Shown here: positions 54,462-63,600 of the stretch, in pieces
How positions within the stretch are numbered: the first letter of the stretch is position 1
Layout of the letters: the number at the start of each line of letters is the position of its first letter
From: Bacteroidales bacterium
Lineage (GTDB): Bacteria; Bacteroidota; Bacteroidia; Bacteroidales; UBA12077
DNA: 64,000 nt
Assembly (NCBI GenBank): GCA_028282785.1
Contig: JANQHE010000005.1
Coordinates: forward strand, 1-64,000
Direction: 5' to 3'
Notes under the pieces: generated by a model
The model's input: only the letters and a program-made list of their open reading frames with translations
Told to the model about the DNA's origin: nothing
Database searches by the model: none
Made by a program: the position numbers and the translations under genes

Positions 54462-54470
54462 AATTTAATC

Positions 54471-54707
54471 ATGTATTATGTTTATATATTAAAATGTTCA
54501 GATGGCACGTTCTACAAAGGATGTACTTCAAATTTAAATGAACGGATAAATCGACATAAACAGGGATATATTAAGTATACTCAAAGCAGGCTTCCAATTG
54601 AATTAGTTACTTATATAGTTTTTAGTGATCAATATCGAGCTTTTGAATTCGAAAAGTACCTTAAATCTGGTTCAGGTAGAGCTTTTATGAAAAAGAGATT
54701 GATTTAA
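54471..54707 (+). CDS. GIY-YIG nuclease-family protein
   Basis: 78 residues, the common stand-alone size. It starts MYYVYILKCSDGTFYKGCTSNLNERINRHKQG (the Y-x-Y-IL and YxG elements of the fold, with Arg in LNERINRH) and ends FEFEKYLKSGSGRAFMKKR. Such short members are frequent next to tRNA genes in Bacteroidota; their cellular role is unsettled. Confidence 0.9.
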   Translation: MYYVYILKCSDGTFYKGCTSNLNERINRHKQGYIKYTQSRLPIELVTYIVFSDQYRAFEFEKYLKSGSGRAFMKKRLI

Positions 54708-54887: not shown

Positions 54888-54962
54888 CGGGGTGTAGCGT
54901 AGCCCGGTTATCGCGCCTGCTTTGGGAGCAGGAGGTCGCAGGTTCGAATCCTGCCACCCCGA
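54888..54962 (+). tRNA. tRNA-Pro (TGG)
   Basis: Acceptor CGGGGTG/CACCCCG, anticodon stem CCTGC/GCAGG with loop TTTGGGA (anticodon TGG at 54923-54925), T-arm GCAGGTTCGAATCCTGC. CCA is not encoded. It forms the left edge of the accessory region that follows; no second copy of its 3' end is visible in the window. Confidence 0.95.
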
Positions 54963-54973
54963 CAACAGAAAAG

Positions 54974-55139: not shown

Positions 55140-55830
55140 GGTGATGCTGGTAAGAATCTAGTTCGAACAAAACGAACGAAGTGAGTGTTTTCTTGAGAAA
55201 ATTGTCAAATTTTCGTCAGCCCATTGAGATGCGTTGGAGGTCAGTGTCAACCGAGTGTCGGAGCGTGTCGGGTCGCCTGTTTGGCGTTCGGACAACCGTC
55301 CGATTGGAACCGTCAGCCCATCGGAAAGCGGGTTCGGGCTGTTCAGCCCGTCAGAACGAAAGCCTGAAAGCATTGTCAACAGGGCGAAACGGAATGATTC
55401 GCTTTCCATCAAGGGCGACCATCGGTCGGAAACGTCAGCCGATATTTTTATTAAACAGAACCAAACGGTGGAATCCGCCGTTAAATCTTCCTGCCTTGTC
55501 GCCTGCCTCGCCGTCAGGCAGGGCAGACAGGTCGCCCCATTCGGGGCGGTTTTTGGGCGCTCTTTTATTTTTTGATTTTTGAAGAAAGAGCCAGCCCACA
55601 TATTTTTTGTCACAGTTTTTGAGACCCCATCCCTTCTATGCACATTGCCGTCCTCATTCCTGCGGGCGCCAAAGAGCATTCCAACACAATTATCAAAAAT
55701 TCCGCCAAAAAATAATTGCCCACAACGCTCCAATAAATGTAACTGCCATTGGGTGGACAGGAAGGTCAGTAGCTTTGTTGATACATTGTGTTCCGCCCAC
55801 ATTAACATCATGTTTATAAATTTACAATAG
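55140..55830. other. G+C-rich, hairpin-dense stretch without a convincing gene
   Basis: Visibly richer in G+C than everything around it, especially 55220-55560. Perfect or near-perfect hairpins follow one another: GAAAATT/AATTTTC (55197-55214), CGGAC/GTCCG (55289-55302), CGGGCT/AGCCCG (55335-55350), AACGGTGG/CCGCCGTT (55464-55482), CTGCCT/AGGCAG (55503-55521) and CGCCCC/GGGGCG (55533-55548). The word CGTCAGCC recurs at 55214, 55311 and 55433, spaced about 100-120 bp. Frames are open on both strands at once, as expected of non-coding G+C-rich DNA. It may be a structured RNA or the end of a mobile element; I cannot assign it. Confidence 0.5.
55533..55555 (+). terminator. Terminator-like hairpin in the G+C-rich stretch
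   Basis: CGCCCC-ATTC-GGGGCG followed by GTTTTTG. If the stretch is transcribed rightward, this would be its 3' end. Confidence 0.45.
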
Positions 55831-55966: not shown

Positions 55967-56194
55967 GTGGTAGATAAGAAGAAGGTTTATAATAGAATCA
56001 AGGCTGTATTAGCTGAAAAAAGTAAAACAAATCTTTGGTTAGCTTCTAAATTGAATGTTAATAGGACTACTGTTTCTAAATGGTGTACAAATGATGTTCA
56101 GCCAACAATGGAAACACTTTTTAGAATTGCAGAAGCTTTAGATGTGAACGTCAGAGAATTATTAGTTTCCACTAAAAAACCGAGTGTTTCATGA
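55967..56194 (+). CDS. XRE-family regulator at the head of the Wadjet-like operon
   Basis: 75 residues from GTG. Nearly all of it is a Cro/CI helix-turn-helix (YNRIKAVLAEKSKTNLWLASKLNVNRTTVSKWCTND, METLFRIAEALDVNVRELL). Its stop overlaps the start of the next gene (ATGA), so it is co-translated with the SMC-system genes. It probably controls the operon through the inverted repeat just upstream. Regulators of this kind are frequent at the front of restriction and other defence operons in Bacteroidota. Confidence 0.85.
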   Translation: MVDKKKVYNRIKAVLAEKSKTNLWLASKLNVNRTTVSKWCTNDVQPTMETLFRIAEALDVNVRELLVSTKKPSVS

Positions 56195-57582
56195 ATTTTG
56201 ATTTTAATGAGTTGTTTACCGATTATGATTTCCTTATTCCTAATAAGATTGAAGGATATGTCATTATTCGGCTGTGGCAAAAGATAAAGTCAAATGAAAT
56301 TCAGGAAGAATTTTCTTATTATGATATTAGAAACGTAATTGACGAAACGGTATCTTTTACTAATGGAAGCACACCTCAAACGGAAAAAATATTAAAAGAT
56401 TTACTTCATTATTTTATTAAAAAGCCTCCTGAAACCGTTTCAAAATATTATCTCTCTGATTATGCAGAAAGGTTTATTCAATTATTAGAAACTAAAATCG
56501 ATAGCCCATACAGAAATTTTCCTTTAAAAAAGAACTTCGAAAAATATTTTTCTGTTGAATTTGAGGAAATTGAAGATTTTGAAGAATTAAACCGCTGGTT
56601 TAGACAGGGTTTTCATGACACTTCCAAAAGAGTTATCCTTGACCATATTGAAAGTCTGCAAGATGAAATTGAATCTTCTATTAAAAAGCTTAATAAAATA
56701 TTGTATTCGGATGAATTACAGGCAATTGAAATGGTAAAATTGTTCGTAGATGAATTCAAAAATTTCGGACTTAAAGCAGAACAAATAAGGGAAGCACTTT
56801 TTCTTAAAAATGAAACTTTAAGAAGCTTAAAAAATGCATCAGACTTCTTCTATTCAAAAATTGAGGAAACAAAACATTTTCAGACTATTGAGGAAGAAAA
56901 ACGTTATGACGAATTAGAATATAAATGGAAAACTGCCAATCAAATAAAAGAAGAGGTTACTGCTTTTTTTGAGAATTTAGATAAGAAGCTTTTAAGAATT
57001 ACTAACCAGATTGTATTTGCCAGTTCAAAACTAAAAGAGTTAGAAGAAAACTTTCAATACCAATCTCTATTTAAAATTAACTTGAAAAAGTTGCTCCAAT
57101 TAGTTCTCGAGACAAGCGGTTTCGATAAAAAAGAGGGCATTCTGTTGCATAAAGATTTTCCTATTAAAGGTATTCCTTATGAAAAAGTACAGCTTTTTTT
57201 CTCACCCAAATATGAGTTTAATATTGAAACTGAAAGTCTTGGAATTATTCCCGAAACGAACATAGACTACGAACAAGCAGAAAGAGCAAAAATTGAAAGC
57301 GATTTGCGAGTGCAAGAGAAAATAGCTTCATGGGTTGATATCTGTTTTTCTAGAATTCAAAAAGAAAAAGAGTTTAATTATTCGTCAGTGTTTTACGAAA
57401 TTTTGGATAATGAACAAAATATAGAAATTCCACTTCAGGTTGGATTCTCCCTATTTCAACAGCTTTCCAATAACAAAGATTTTGATGTTATAATTGATAA
57501 AACAATTGCAAATCCTAATAGAAACGATATACTTACATGGAACATGAAAATACATCGCAAGGAAATCCTTATTCGTTCCTAA
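56191..57582 (+). CDS. JetA/MksF-like kleisin subunit of a Wadjet-type SMC system
   Basis: 463 residues and no signal. Helical throughout: an N-terminal winged-helix-like part (about 10-125), then long amphipathic and coiled-coil helices (about 140-300) and a C-terminal domain. Size, position and helical make-up fit JetA (MksF), the kleisin that bridges the SMC heads. I identify it mainly from context: it precedes a MksE-like, an SMC and a Toprim gene. It overlaps the regulator by 4 bp and the next gene by 46 bp. Direct sequence motifs are weak, so family assignment is moderate. Confidence 0.65.
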   Translation: MNFDFNELFTDYDFLIPNKIEGYVIIRLWQKIKSNEIQEEFSYYDIRNVIDETVSFTNGSTPQTEKILKDLLHYFIKKPPETVSKYYLSDYAERFIQLLETKIDSPYRNFPLKKNFEKYFSVEFEEIEDFEELNRWFRQGFHDTSKRVILDHIESLQDEIESSIKKLNKILYSDELQAIEMVKLFVDEFKNFGLKAEQIREALFLKNETLRSLKNASDFFYSKIEETKHFQTIEEEKRYDELEYKWKTANQIKEEVTAFFENLDKKLLRITNQIVFASSKLKELEENFQYQSLFKINLKKLLQLVLETSGFDKKEGILLHKDFPIKGIPYEKVQLFFSPKYEFNIETESLGIIPETNIDYEQAERAKIESDLRVQEKIASWVDICFSRIQKEKEFNYSSVFYEILDNEQNIEIPLQVGFSLFQQLSNNKDFDVIIDKTIANPNRNDILTWNMKIHRKEILIRS

Positions 57583-58208
57583 GCAATGCCACCGTGCAAA
57601 AATATTTTGCTGACTTGAATATTGAGTTACTTCAAGGAAAACACATTATGGAAGATGATTACTATAGTTTTCAGTTATTACGAGAATACTATGAGCCTGA
57701 GTTAAAACAATATTATAGAGAGCTATACAATTTGAATTTAGAAAAAAACACCGTTGATAACAGTACCTATTTTTATCTTGATTTCCCTATTGATAGTAAA
57801 GGAAAATTGAATAGCTCAAATAGATACAGATAACTCACTGAACAACAAGTAATTATTGGAATTATCTTACTTAACATGTATTACGACAGGTATTTTAAAT
57901 ATCCAAAAGAATTATTTTGGGAAGATATAAAAGCTGAAATAGAACAGAGTGAGTCGAAAGACTTATATAAAATTTTGTTTTTTGCCGAAATAAGAGATTT
58001 CTATACCGATAAAGAGTGGGAAAGAGTACAGGATTTATTCCGTAGGGCAATAAATAGTTTTACACAGCTAGGTTGGCTAAAAAAGCTCTCAAAGGGGAAA
58101 GAGGATATTCATTTCGAATTAAAAGAAAGTATCCATCGGTTTGCAGAATTATATAAATATGAGATTGAGGACTTTCCCCAATTTGTGTCAAAAATTAAAC
58201 TGTATTGA
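57537..58208 (+). pseudogene. JetB/MksE-like subunit, interrupted by one in-frame TAA
   Basis: ATG at 57537 opens a 98-codon frame ending at TAA 57831-57833. The same frame then continues without a break to TGA 58206-58208 (LTEQQVIIGIILLNMYY, then FWEDIKAEIEQSESKDLYKILFFAEI, DLFRRAINSFTQLGWLKKL). Read through, it gives about 223 residues, a normal MksE/JetB size, and the join SSNRYR-stop-LTEQQVIIGIILL sits where the family has a continuous helix. A restart at ATG 57876 would yield a separate 110-residue half. The cause could be a nonsense mutation, sequencing error, read-through or a working split protein. It overlaps the JetA-like gene by 46 bp. Confidence 0.65.
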
Positions 58209-58213
58209 GAATT

Positions 58214-61200
58214 ATGCCTCTACCTAAAATATACTCAATTTCTACCGTTGGAATTTTAAAGCATTTCAACCAAGACTATTTAATACATCCTTTGAGGACT
58301 GATTTTACAGGAGGAAATGGTGTAGGAAAATCAATTTTAGCAGATTTAATTCAGATAATATTCATTTGTGATGAAAAGAATATAAAGTTTGGTACAGATA
58401 GTTTTAATAAAGATAAAAGGGAGATTCAGAAGCTGCCATATAAAAATAATTTTGCATATGCTTTCTTAAATATTAAAGTGGATGAGGAAAAGTTTCTGAC
58501 ATTAGGAGTCAATATACAGTCTAAAAGCGGTAAAAAAATCCGCCCATTTTTAATCCTTGCAAAACCTGAATTAAATGCCCCTTTGAATGAACTCGTTTAT
58601 GATAGCAGTAAGATTCTGACGAATAAAGATTTTCTAAATGACCAAAATAAAATTCTTCCCTTAGACGAACTATCTAAACAACTGAAAGAAAAGTATCAGC
58701 TATTTTTAACTTACTTTTCGTATAAAGAAGATATCGAACAATACCACTCTTTTCTATTTAATAACAACATCCTACCAATAAATCTTACTATTCCTGAGCA
58801 TCTCAAAGCTTTTGCAAAGGTAATACAATCCTTTTCCCGGGTAAGGGACTTAGGGCTTGATAAAGCAAATGGTTTAAAAGCATTTCTATTTGAAGATGAT
58901 GACAAAGAATATTGGGAGGAATATTCAAAGCATGAACTACAATTAGATAAGTTACTAACTGACTTTAAAGAATTAAATATCCGTATTAATGATATTGAGC
59001 AGAAACAGAGAGTACTTGAAAAATTGAGTGACTTTGAAAAAATAAAGAACGAGTCCGCATTAAAATATGAATTACAAGAAATTATAGAATTATATCAACG
59101 ATATACAGAATGCCAAAAACAGGAAAAGAAATTAAATGAGGATTTAAAAAGCAAAAGTAAAAAAAGTGAATGCCTGAAATTACGAGAAAATAAATTTGCG
59201 CGAATAGTTCCAAGAATTGAAAAAGATTATTCAGATGTTGAATCAAATTATACTTTACTCTTAAGATATGAATCAAAGTTCAAAGAATGGAAACGATTTG
59301 ATAACGAAATAAAACAACTCAGACAAATTGCTTATGCTCATTTTTCTGCAGAAACGATAAATAAATCTACTAAAATTGATTTTAAGGATATCACTTCTAA
59401 AGAAATAATAAAGAAAGTAAATTCAACAATCCCATTATTTACACAGTACGGTCAGTTGGATGATATTATTAAAAAACATGATGAGCAGGAAAACGAACTT
59501 TCATCTTTGGTTTTACAAGTAGAGAAAAAACTGAATCACTTAAAACGTATAATCGAGTTATTAAGTGGCAAAGGAACTAATAGCCTATTCGGTCAAATTG
59601 TTCACAAAAAGAAAGTTCTATCCGAGTATCAGGAATCTGTATTATTGGCTCTAATTGACTTGTCATTAGAAAAGCCTGAAATTGTATTCACTGGTATTAG
59701 ATATGCTCTTTCAACCAACATTTTAAACGAAGAAAACTTTGAGATTGATAAACAAAACAATGGAATTTGGTTGAAGTTAGGCGATTTGCGAGAATTTGTT
59801 GAGTTGTCAAAAGAGGAACGAATCTTTGAATATGGTTCTGATTTTGAAAACATTTTATCAAACAAAATCGATGAGTTAAAGATTCAGGTTAAAAAATTGC
59901 AACGGAAAAAAGAAGAATTAGATAAAATAAAAAAATCCCAAGAGTATGATAAGGAAATCATTAAAGATTACGATTTTGACATAAGGCTTATTCAATATTC
60001 TGACATTGAAAACTTAAAAGAGTCTGTCTGGATAATAAATAATAAAGAAATTAAAATTTCTCAATTACTATCTGATAGCTCTCATCTAAAATCAGAAATA
60101 GATGAAATCAAACAAGAAATTACAATTCCGATAGACACTCAGAATCTAACTGAATTAATAAAAGAATATGAAATAAAGAAGGAAATAGCCAATAAACGTA
60201 AAAGAAAAATACTTGACAAAAGGAATTTAGAGTCTAGTGAATTAGCCGGATTAAATGCGGAAATGCCACATCTTCAAAAGAACTTAAAAGAAAAACAGGA
60301 TGAAATATCTGATGTATCTAAATTGTATGAATTAAAAAAGGAAGGGTTTACTAATCAATATCCTGATATAGATATCCATAGTCAGAAAGGCTTTTCCGAA
60401 AACAAACTCCTTAATGAATTGAAAGAGGATTTTGAAACAGCTCATGAAAATTACATTACTGAGTATAAATCAATAGTTAACGTTTTTAATGAAACTAATG
60501 AAGAAAAGAATTCTCAGGTTAATCTTCAAATAAATAAAAAACTATATCAATTTAAGGTATTAGAAGAAGTTTTATTAGGAGGAAAAATTAAGTATCTGGA
60601 TAATATCAGTGAATATTTGCGTGAAGCAAATGAACAACGCCTACGAATTGTTGAGAATATCAGGGACAATATGATTAAAGTTTTTTCTAAAACACTAGCC
60701 CGGTATGAAACCTATGAAAATATTGTCAAGAACCTAAATACATTTTTTATAGGAAAGAAAATAAATGAAACCTATTATCTAAATCTCAATTTTCGAGAGT
60801 ACGATAATATAAAAATTAGTTGGATTGATGAATTACAAAATTCTGCTCGTTGGGTCAATAAACCTGGGGAACTAGAATTTGGACATTCAGTTCAAGAATT
60901 TATAGAACAGTTGTTTAAGAAAATAACCGGAATCCGAAGAGCAATTGAATTTAAGGATTTACTTAACCCGAAGTCATATTTCGATTTATCAATAACCCTC
61001 ACAGATGAATTTAAAAATGAAATTCCGGGAAGTACAGGAGAAACATATTCCGCAATTGTTTTATTAGGTATAGCACGTCTCTCAAAAGTGAGGGATAAAA
61101 ATCATGATGGGCTTAGGTTTATAATTTTAGAGGAACTAGCAAACCTAGATGATATAAACTTTAATTTATTCCCCCTTATTGCAAAAGAGTTTGGATATCA

Positions 61201-61378
61201 AATTCTAACCATGACACCAAAACCTTACAATTCAGATTCTCCAGACGGTTGGTATTTATATCATTTAATAAAGGGGAATAAAGACATTAATATAAATTAT
61301 CCTGTTCCGGCAAGTTATTATAAAACAAGAGAGAATAACCAGGATTTAAAAAGTTACTTAAATGCATTGAATAAATGA
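58214..61378 (+). CDS. JetC/MksB-like SMC ATPase
   Basis: About 1054 residues from ATG 58214 (TTG 58205, overlapping the previous stop, is possible). Walker A is DFTGGNGVGKSILADLIQIIF (near 35-50). Long coiled coils run about 240-380 and 540-800 around a hinge-like middle. The ABC signature is PGSTGETYSAIVLLGIARL and the Walker B region RFIILEELANLDDINF, with Glu where an Asp is normal, then ILTMTP as the switch. This is the DNA-loop-extruding motor expected in a Wadjet/MksB system. It overlaps the Toprim gene by 4 bp. Confidence 0.8.
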   Translation: MPLPKIYSISTVGILKHFNQDYLIHPLRTDFTGGNGVGKSILADLIQIIFICDEKNIKFGTDSFNKDKREIQKLPYKNNFAYAFLNIKVDEEKFLTLGVNIQSKSGKKIRPFLILAKPELNAPLNELVYDSSKILTNKDFLNDQNKILPLDELSKQLKEKYQLFLTYFSYKEDIEQYHSFLFNNNILPINLTIPEHLKAFAKVIQSFSRVRDLGLDKANGLKAFLFEDDDKEYWEEYSKHELQLDKLLTDFKELNIRINDIEQKQRVLEKLSDFEKIKNESALKYELQEIIELYQRYTECQKQEKKLNEDLKSKSKKSECLKLRENKFARIVPRIEKDYSDVESNYTLLLRYESKFKEWKRFDNEIKQLRQIAYAHFSAETINKSTKIDFKDITSKEIIKKVNSTIPLFTQYGQLDDIIKKHDEQENELSSLVLQVEKKLNHLKRIIELLSGKGTNSLFGQIVHKKKVLSEYQESVLLALIDLSLEKPEIVFTGIRYALSTNILNEENFEIDKQNNGIWLKLGDLREFVELSKEERIFEYGSDFENILSNKIDELKIQVKKLQRKKEELDKIKKSQEYDKEIIKDYDFDIRLIQYSDIENLKESVWIINNKEIKISQLLSDSSHLKSEIDEIKQEITIPIDTQNLTELIKEYEIKKEIANKRKRKILDKRNLESSELAGLNAEMPHLQKNLKEKQDEISDVSKLYELKKEGFTNQYPDIDIHSQKGFSENKLLNELKEDFETAHENYITEYKSIVNVFNETNEEKNSQVNLQINKKLYQFKVLEEVLLGGKIKYLDNISEYLREANEQRLRIVENIRDNMIKVFSKTLARYETYENIVKNLNTFFIGKKINETYYLNLNFREYDNIKISWIDELQNSARWVNKPGELEFGHSVQEFIEQLFKKITGIRRAIEFKDLLNPKSYFDLSITLTDEFKNEIPGSTGETYSAIVLLGIARLSKVRDKNHDGLRFIILEELANLDDINFNLFPLIAKEFGYQILTMTPKPYNSDSPDGWYLYHLIKGNKDININYPVPASYYKTRENNQDLKSYLNALNK

Positions 61379-62322
61379 AGTGGAATGTTTTAAAAGATAT
61401 GCATAAGCTTTACGAATGTGGCAAAATAAAAAGAAAACCTTCATTTGTAAACGATTCCTATATAGCTCATCTAATACATTCTACAAAAGAACTGTGCGCT
61501 TTAAGAAAAGAAGTCATTATTCCTGAAGGTTCAACTTTCAGGCAAACTTATGAGAAACTTTACTTCGATAAGTTTATTAGTTATAAGACATTTTTGGAAG
61601 ACAATGATTTAATAAAGCCACAAACGAGATTTGAGCATTCAGATATCGAACAATTAATTGACATTAAAACTCAAATGGATTCAGGTTCATTAAAACTATT
61701 GCGGGAACAAATCCTAAAAGCCAATGAAACCGTTAGAGGAATTTCATTCATGTTTTTTAAGAATGAAAAGTATTTGGATGATAAGAAATCTCTAATCGAA
61801 GCAATTGAAAAAATATTACAAGTACCCGAATTGCCATCTGGAAAGGACAAGCAATATCTTTATGTAGTTCCCTGCAAATCAGCTAAAGCAATTATATTAT
61901 GTGAAAATTTATACTTTTTAAGAGTGCCTGAACGTGTTAAGAATTTTAATATTGAATTGTGGTTTGCAGGTGGCTATAATATCAGCATGTTAGAAAACGT
62001 TGATACCAGGAATCTACCAATTTATTACTCCTGCGATTGGGATTATCACGGTCTCAATATTTTTGATTTAGTCAAAGCCAAAGTTCCACAGATTGAGTTG
62101 TTATTCCCAAATGCTAATCCTGTAGGCATTATAGAATCTGAGCATAATAGTCATTGGAAAAAAGCTCATGCACCTGAAACATTATCAGGTTTGAACACGG
62201 ATTTATTTAGTCTTCAGGAGAAACATTTAATTCAACAATTAATATCCGATAATTCTTGGATTATCGAAGAATCAAATGACATAACGGAAATGATTAAAAT
62301 GAAAATGCTCAAGCTATCATAA
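61375..62322 (+). CDS. JetD/MksG-like Toprim nuclease subunit
   Basis: 315 residues. The C-terminal half has a Toprim layout: ILCENLYFLRVPERV (catalytic Glu), a strand-turn ELWFAGGYNI, and the acidic pair in IYYSCDWDYHGLNIFDLV, as in topoisomerase VI-A/DUF2220 proteins. The N-terminal ~170 residues are helical with a winged-helix-like part, shorter than in classic JetD. In Wadjet systems this subunit cuts the plasmid that the SMC motor has folded. ATGA overlap with the SMC gene shows tight coupling. Confidence 0.75.
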   Translation: MKWNVLKDMHKLYECGKIKRKPSFVNDSYIAHLIHSTKELCALRKEVIIPEGSTFRQTYEKLYFDKFISYKTFLEDNDLIKPQTRFEHSDIEQLIDIKTQMDSGSLKLLREQILKANETVRGISFMFFKNEKYLDDKKSLIEAIEKILQVPELPSGKDKQYLYVVPCKSAKAIILCENLYFLRVPERVKNFNIELWFAGGYNISMLENVDTRNLPIYYSCDWDYHGLNIFDLVKAKVPQIELLFPNANPVGIIESEHNSHWKKAHAPETLSGLNTDLFSLQEKHLIQQLISDNSWIIEESNDITEMIKMKMLKLS

Positions 62323-62574: not shown

Positions 62575-63600
62575 ATGGCAAAAAAAAGACATCATTATAT
62601 TCCAAAATTTTATTTGAGAAGATTTTCCGTCAATAATAACGGAAGATCTTTAGGGCTATATAATCTTGACAATAAGAAATTTATACAAAATGCACCTTTA
62701 AAAAGCCAAGCTTACGAAAACTTTCTTTATGGAGAAGATGATGAAATAGAAAATGCTTTGGCTGAGATGGAAAATACTGTTGCCAAGATGTTTTACTATT
62801 GGACAGAGAAAAAATTACTTTATCCACCTCCAGTTGAAACCAATGGTTTTAAGTTGTTAAAGCGTTTTATTTTATACCAGACTTTTAGAACGCCAAAGTC
62901 CGGTAACGAGATAATGAAGGGTCTTAATCAAGGTTTAAAAACTGTTGTACAAGAATTTGAGCCTGATTTGTGGGAAAGTTTTAAAGATGGAACATTGGTT
63001 CATGAAAATCCAGTTTTACTAGGTTTATTCCATGCAATTAAGCACGAACAGCTTTTAGATTTTCTTGATTGTAAGTTTTTAGTAAACCTTACACTACTGC
63101 CATTCGTAACTTCGGATGTACCTGTAATTCTTTATAATCAATTAATGGAACACGCAGATAATTATATGGGTTCAACTGGTTTAGTAGTAAAAGGGCTTCA
63201 AATCTTTTATCCAATTCACCCAAGGTTGATGATTTGCTTTTATGACTCCAATGTTTATGATTTTGGAGATGGATACATTAACTGTTGCTCTACAGAATCA
63301 ATTGATGAAGTACATCAGTTGAATGGTCTTCAACTCATCAATTCTAATTCACAACTTTTTTTTGGTGATTCTATTTCTGAAGAGTATATCACAGAGTTAC
63401 TTAATCATTTTGAAAAGTATAGAAAAACAACAAAAAACATAAACCAAATCATCAATCAAGGAAGTAGAAAATTCTTTTTTACAAGTTCGGAAGATGCTCA
63501 TATAGATTTGAGTTTAGATTTTTTTAAATTAAAAGTGAATCCGAACGACTTTAAAAATGAGATTGTTCCAATAAGACATCCCTCATTTGATAAAAATTGA
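62575..63600 (+). CDS. DUF4238 domain protein
   Basis: 341 residues. The start MAKKRHHYIPKFYLRRFS is the DUF4238 hallmark (HYxPxFYLRxF), followed by YENFLYGEDDEIENALAEME, RFILYQTFRTP and VTSDVPVILYN (the TSDxPV motif). Function is not established; members are common in defence and mobile regions. It lies downstream of the Wadjet-like genes and may be an independent cargo gene. Confidence 0.88.
   Translation: MAKKRHHYIPKFYLRRFSVNNNGRSLGLYNLDNKKFIQNAPLKSQAYENFLYGEDDEIENALAEMENTVAKMFYYWTEKKLLYPPPVETNGFKLLKRFILYQTFRTPKSGNEIMKGLNQGLKTVVQEFEPDLWESFKDGTLVHENPVLLGLFHAIKHEQLLDFLDCKFLVNLTLLPFVTSDVPVILYNQLMEHADNYMGSTGLVVKGLQIFYPIHPRLMICFYDSNVYDFGDGYINCCSTESIDEVHQLNGLQLINSNSQLFFGDSISEEYITELLNHFEKYRKTTKNINQIINQGSRKFFFTSSEDAHIDLSLDFFKLKVNPNDFKNEIVPIRHPSFDKN

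Follow-up and report, generated by a model that had tools for sequence, protein, structure and literature searches.

Type I Wadjet systems (JetABCD, also MksBEFG), described from Escherichia coli GF4-3, Pseudomonas aeruginosa PA14 and, for the nuclease MksG, Corynebacterium glutamicum, encode a kleisin, a KITE subunit, an SMC ATPase and a Toprim nuclease in that order. According to PMC10586767, the studied systems cut small circular DNA and all four Jet subunits are necessary in Bacillus subtilis; the same paper describes the MksBEF of P. aeruginosa as probably JetABCD minus JetD, and speculates that MksBEF and MukBEF originated from Wadjet. Here we analyse a relative of these systems in a Bacteroidales bacterium (assembly GCA_028282785.1), located at positions 55967-62322 on the plus strand of the first 64,000 nucleotides of contig JANQHE010000005.1, a stretch that we call the window. 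Open reading frame (ORF) calls give the gene order XRE regulator, kleisin, MksE, SMC ATPase and JetD/MksG-type Toprim protein, with the coordinates and 4-46 bp overlaps that a first-pass annotation had listed, and the match of this gene set to the Wadjet order is far beyond chance. We conclude that the core of the operon is a real, divergent, Bacteroidota-wide Wadjet (JetABCD/MksBEFG) lineage. Our best explanation of the window copy, to which we give a probability of about 80%, is that it is a probably decaying, horizontally acquired member of this lineage, sited in variable sequence immediately after tRNA-Pro and standing behind a type of XRE regulator that also fronts other defence and restriction operons of the genus.

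The divergent Wadjet lineage proposed in the first-pass annotation is supported by its relatives. Scanning 84,980 species genomes with a JetD profile gave 167 matching stretches, of which 133 are relatives, and 80 of the 133 were kept. All 80 come from Bacteroidota by their record titles, and one further relative on a viral-collection contig makes 81 loci (L070-L150, the basis of all counts of relatives given here; some G loci duplicate the genomes of other loci, for example L006 and L090). All four genes are present in 70 of the 81 loci, and in 66 each is a single ORF in the order kleisin, KITE, SMC, JetD on one strand, so that the JetABCD order first read from the window genes recurs across the family. 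Among the 11 remaining loci, 10 have sequence starting inside or within ~1 kb of the SMC gene, and some look broken as well. The relative on the viral-collection contig (L150) has four genes with a split SMC, and its contig is a candidate provirus, satellite or mis-sorted contig. Another locus (L053/L109), from a metagenome-assembled genome, holds a remnant operon in which JetD is open, the kleisin and SMC genes survive as pieces of 128 amino acids (aa) and 86 aa, and MksE is missing along with most of SMC.

The SMC phylogeny separates this family from MukB and type-I-like JetC. The SMC head tree comprised 60 of 113 rows, family rows more than 80% identical to a kept one having been dropped (7 of 25 JetD-less and 43 of 78 JetD-bearing rows kept). 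References were MukB and nine JetC proteins from Bacteroidota genomes that we label type-I-like from their gene sizes and JetD_C matches. The family forms one clade (100/99) far from these references, and the branch that parts it from the nine JetC proteins is very long. Within it are two halves, each of 25 rows (96/87 and 95/93). An identical two-clade split is found in the JetD tree of 43 rows (97/96), and thus SMC and JetD have travelled together. The long branches are unsure (MukB 2.97; L066 1.2 in the SMC tree and 3.95 in the JetD tree). A type III reference was sought with the PADLOC JetD3 model, which matched 18 of 296 genomes of the phylum, the best at 25.8 bits and none clearly. The open-licence literature matches listed include no description of this Bacteroidota family.

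The Toprim protein ties the operon to Wadjet through both sequence and predicted structure. It matches JetD_C (PF09983) at 24 bits, above the cut-off of 22, and carries a C-terminal topo VI-type Toprim domain in which E177, D221 and D223 are invariant across 41 aligned sequences, window included; E298 is invariant too. Foldseek placed MksG (8b7f) and JetD (7til) at ranks 1 and 2 for the predicted structure, and profile-profile comparison with type-I-like JetD gave 94.9% over the Toprim part. Fold and acidic residues are thereby shared with type I nucleases, and a nuclease family lacking JetD relatives, which the first-pass annotation had allowed for, is not what we find. Its description of JetD as shortened also holds: the Toprim domain begins at about residue 158, as against 207-217 in MksG/JetD, leaving an N-terminal arm shorter by at least ~50 residues. 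For residues 1-157, where a CAP/arm domain would lie, the model has high confidence, though the structure alignments scarcely cover them. JetD length ranges from 276 to 345 aa (median 313) among the 66 single-ORF loci; the lowest value, that of L108, reflects clipping by a contig end. Whole-genome searches with PF09983 found the window protein and missed the proteins of G002 and G012. In one genus of the phylum (group f19/g60), several genomes, G098 and G185 among them, have between two and four JetD_C matches apiece, not all of them complete.

The SMC protein combines a MukB N-terminal domain with a Walker A motif (GGNGVGKS), a signature-like GSTGE and a Walker-B-like FIILEE whose second glutamate, E977, is invariant in 25 sequences, in keeping with the P-loop and signature reported at first pass. 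Against solved structures, its profile matched MukB chains in four of seven cases at E <=0.01 (best 2.9e-11), the other three matches being weak and to other chains; profile-profile comparison gave 97.6% for JetC and 96.9% for MukB. A repair SMC of RecN/SbcC type, a grouping that would have spoken against Wadjet, was rejected because the Pfam and structure matches are to MukB and because the partners are kleisin, MksE and JetD. Lamassu was rejected as well, since neither LmuA nor LmuC matched, LmuB reached just 4.6 in the window and 3.3e-4 in one relative (L071), and the operon has a kleisin and MksE. Neither a single-sequence SMC scan of the genome contig collection nor an SMC scan of the plasmid collection returned a relative. 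For MksE, the profile of the intact relatives matched JetB at 81.5%.

The predicted fold and the gene position both point to a kleisin in the JetA position. The AlphaFold2 model (mean predicted local distance difference test score 83.2, predicted template modelling (TM) score 0.52) drew MukF chains at Foldseek ranks 1-10 and, at rank 11 with a probability of 0.69, the E. coli JetABCD entry 8q72 (chain E). We read in the model an N-terminal winged helix, a helical middle, a disordered linker at 328-347 and a C-terminal winged helix. Neither Pfam nor PADLOC gave a notable match for this protein, and a profile search of the PDB placed designed helical bundles on top and found no kleisin. The operon thus resembles E. 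coli MukBEF (NC_000913) in its predicted kleisin fold, its MukE/MksE Pfam matches and its MukB N-terminal domain; it differs in its shorter SMC protein (1057 versus 1486 aa), its nuclease gene and its accessory distribution.

Intact members of the lineage most likely act like Wadjet, on grounds of homology. By analogy with the studied type I systems, an SMC dimer would assemble with kleisin and MksE into a two-motor loop-extruding complex that reels in DNA until the motors meet on a small circle. JetD, with its shorter N-terminal arm, would then be switched on and cut, so that plasmids would be cleaved and the large chromosome spared.

Several observations weigh against our best explanation. 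Type-specific recognition of JetA, JetB, JetC and JetD by PADLOC 2.0.0 largely fails: the window matched JetD1/JetD3 at 3e-5 to 0.03, and no JetA, JetB or JetC match was listed at E <=10 in a run where MksE was entered as halves and HMMER filters remove most matches above 0.1. Relatives fared little differently, L071 matching JetB1 (1.1e-5), JetC1 (0.0023) and JetD1 (0.005), with its SMC protein closer to LmuB than to JetC1, and L129 matching JetD1 only (0.016). The kleisin profile scored 1.3% against JetA and a weak 5.8% against MukF, and in a comparison with 219 decoys MukF ranked second of 226 behind a decoy, the six JetA entries lying between ranks 8 and 163. Whole-chain TM-scores were low, and deviations large, for both kleisin with MukF (0.35/0.36) and JetD with MksG (0.37/0.32), so the fold matches are good at domain level only. 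The usual Walker B aspartate is replaced by glutamate in subclade A, to which the window belongs. The 19 other genomes of the genus, whose lack of the SMC gene speaks for an accessory operon, are partly incomplete (70-100%). Finally, phage or other DNA may be what is targeted. Defence against phages or conjugative elements by the same SMC-nuclease logic, in place of small plasmids, would suit the defence-type neighbouring genes, and the plasmid function is extrapolated from type I systems only; we nevertheless think it unlikely, given that studied Wadjet systems cut small circles.

In the window itself, the Wadjet operon is not intact. The first-pass annotation had described five overlapping genes; kleisin, SMC, Toprim and XRE genes are indeed single ORFs, but mksE consists of two ORFs in one frame, separated by an in-frame TAA (57831-57833) and 14 further codons, and this genome thus lacks an unbroken KITE subunit JetB/MksE. 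Alignment with unbroken relatives places the stop inside a conserved segment. Among the 70 four-gene relatives mksE is a single ORF in 69; the sole other split, in a Pontibacter locus (L113), is a frameshift elsewhere in the gene, and a shared split site was therefore rejected. In three further four-gene relatives (L104, L130, L150) it is the SMC or the kleisin gene that is split. One gene is thus broken in 4 of 70, and decay is not rare in this Wadjet-like lineage. Because all four Jet subunits are needed in B. subtilis, the window copy is, by analogy, probably inactive, weak or otherwise impaired.

Two readings would leave the window operon working. The TAA could be an assembly or base-calling error, which the draft state of the genome (81 contigs) and a single-codon lesion among otherwise open genes would allow; we find this doubtful, as the assembly data carry no sign of error and single broken genes in the relatives make decay unremarkable. 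Alternatively, a functional KITE subunit could arise from the two MksE halves, either translated separately by re-initiation at the ATG 42 nt past the stop or joined through read-through of that stop. Conserved residues are kept in both halves, no other gene of the operon is interrupted and the second half has an ATG soon after the stop, but the 14 intervening codons belong to the conserved segment and the only split among the relatives is a frameshift at a different place, which makes a functional split MksE distinctly improbable.

The XRE gene at the head of the window operon appears to be a local addition. Built-in transcriptional control had been proposed at first pass as a property of the lineage, but no XRE gene precedes the kleisin gene in any of 67 four-gene relatives with >400 nt upstream (other regulator families were not searched in all), and we rejected the regulator as a fixed component of the lineage. 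Matches to XRE at E <=1e-6 occur in 7 of 19 genomes of the genus (its own included in both numbers), and in 7 of 8 further stretches an XRE relative stands directly before another gene on the same strand. These genes are DndC and PbeC/DndD behind a relative of 77% identity (L235), an operon encoding a methyltransferase and a GHKL ATPase (L236), restriction-modification genes of type II/IIG (L238, L242), a ResIII helicase (L239), a CARF-protein operon (L240) and, by our own reading of the sequence, a Fic gene (L237); the eighth relative heads no operon (L241). DNA similarity at low E-value between the window and these stretches is restricted to the XRE gene. Together, these relatives before unrelated operons and the confined similarity suggest that XRE is a portable local part and a candidate portable defence regulator, which would control its own operon. 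The BrxR/WYL, RptR and CapK/CapS regulators resemble it, as PMC9122601, PMC12255303 and PMC13373217 describe them, in standing before unrelated defence operons; they differ from the single-domain XRE of 65-75 aa seen here in one genus.

Acquisition of the window locus is supported by comparison within the genus. Genomes of the same genus align with the window as far as tRNA-Pro (Table 1). Among nine sibling stretches, seven have the tRNA-Pro match; one of these ends there, and for the remaining six the alignments beyond 55010 at E <=1e-5 do not exceed ~45 nt. ORFs of at least 120 codons between 54964 and 81000 likewise match no sibling at E <=1e-10, with the exception of 78785-79741, which matches an FKBP-type gene that the siblings carry before the tRNA. 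Past the operon lie genes for DUF4238, AbiEii, SWIM, a UvrD-like helicase and Fic proteins. No clear flanking direct repeats were found.

Table 1. Features of the Wadjet-like operon and its borders in the window
Feature	Position	Strand	Size and evidence
tRNA-Pro (TGG)	54888..54963	+	ARAGORN; same-genus synteny endpoint, operon ~1 kb downstream
XRE/Cro-type helix-turn-helix regulator	55967..56194	+	75 aa, GTG start; PF01381 HTH_3 4e-10
Kleisin (JetA/MukF/MksF-like)	56191..57582	+	463 aa; AlphaFold2 model and Foldseek
mksE/jetB N-terminal half	57537..57833	+	98 codons; PF21980 MksE 1e-9, profile 1-63
mksE/jetB C-terminal half, same frame, internal ATG	57876..58208	+	110 codons; PF21980 MksE 2.4e-7, profile 85-162
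SMC ATPase (JetC/MksB/MukB-like)	58205..61378	+	1057 aa from TTG; PF04310 1.1e-8
JetD/MksG-like Toprim protein	61375..62322	+	315 aa; Toprim from ~residue 158; PF09983 JetD_C
DUF4238 protein, first gene past operon, neighbour outside system	62575..63600	+	PF14022 4e-32

Genes overlap by 4 bp (XRE/kleisin), 46 bp (kleisin/mksE) and 4 bp (SMC/JetD); the 4-bp overlap of SMC with mksE vanishes if the alternative SMC start, an ATG at 58214, is used. Promoter and terminator scans returned shuffle-level counts (31 versus 35.7 shuffled, and 4 versus 3.6). Between tRNA-Pro and the operon, 55160-55800 is GC-rich (0.43-0.56 per 100 bases over 55201-55800, versus ~0.2-0.36 on either side) and contains no convincing gene. 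A small ORF at 54470-54707, between tRNA-Ser and tRNA-Pro, presumably encodes a GIY-YIG-like protein. Across the 66 relatives with enough sequence (L082-L147), there are 25 in which the kleisin gene follows the end of another gene on its strand by no more than 70 nt, every such gene being of at least 258 aa, compared with 17 of 66 downstream of JetD (12 of at least 258 aa), a modest upstream excess. Ten upstream proteins were scanned: two are UvrD helicases, the others that matched were caspase/Schlafen, AAA, PHP/SMC and DUF4917 proteins, and four had no match. A common fifth gene was not adopted because these proteins belong to several unrelated families, and packing within a defence island is the simpler reading.

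The family also includes operons without JetD. SMC matches were found in 36 of 395 genomes of the class. Besides that of the window, 8 show JetD within the sequence extracted around the SMC gene and 27 show none beside it, some of the extracted stretches ending at that gene; a search of the 27 whole genomes, run without a positive control, did not find JetD. The JetD-less form shares the SMC family and gene order of the JetD-bearing operons, and differs in being near-universal, with shared neighbours, in two genera (7/7 and 6/7, the missing genome being 66% complete); in the window's genus, by contrast, only 1 of 20 genomes carries the form with JetD. The JetD-less operons (L038-L052, L054, L057-L065 and L069) are candidate core condensins. 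JetD-less rows are nested among JetD-bearing rows on the SMC tree, requiring at least three changes. If the tree is rooted on JetC, an ancestor with JetD and later losses would by our count be the cheaper history (three versus four changes), the root branch being very long.

We consider it an even bet that this Wadjet lineage repeatedly lost JetD in Bacteroidota, with at least two JetD-less operons becoming fixed core genes, so that a plasmid cutter became a resident condensin more than once. A search for ScpA (PF02616) gave no match in the window's genome, in three other genus members (G000, G732, G745, G736) or in G012. Since ScpA was found in only 1 of 23 genomes (G002), the lack of a match in JetD-less genomes does not prove a replacement of Smc-ScpAB by MksBEF. 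The possibility that the window operon is itself a chromosomal MksBEF housekeeping condensin with an incidental nuclease, and no defence system, draws on the lack of ScpA there, on an SMC protein that by head columns is most identical (54%) to a JetD-less relative (L037), and on the near-universal JetD-less operons. We judge it highly improbable: the operon has a JetD that keeps its acidic residues, defence-type genes adjoin the operon, and an operon missing from 19 of 20 genomes cannot be the condensin of the genus. The window's genome has only one SMC of this family.

Beside its family the window copy is ordinary, probably a dead member of a divergent Wadjet lineage with a borrowed regulator. 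For the family, we suggest that counts of plasmid restriction in Bacteroidota are probably too low, since PADLOC models, as applied here, hardly see this lineage, and the shorter JetD arm offers a natural experiment on what nuclease control requires. With JetD-bearing accessory operons and JetD-less core operons side by side, the origin of MksBEF from Wadjet becomes directly testable, and the family may be useful for asking how a defence system becomes housekeeping.

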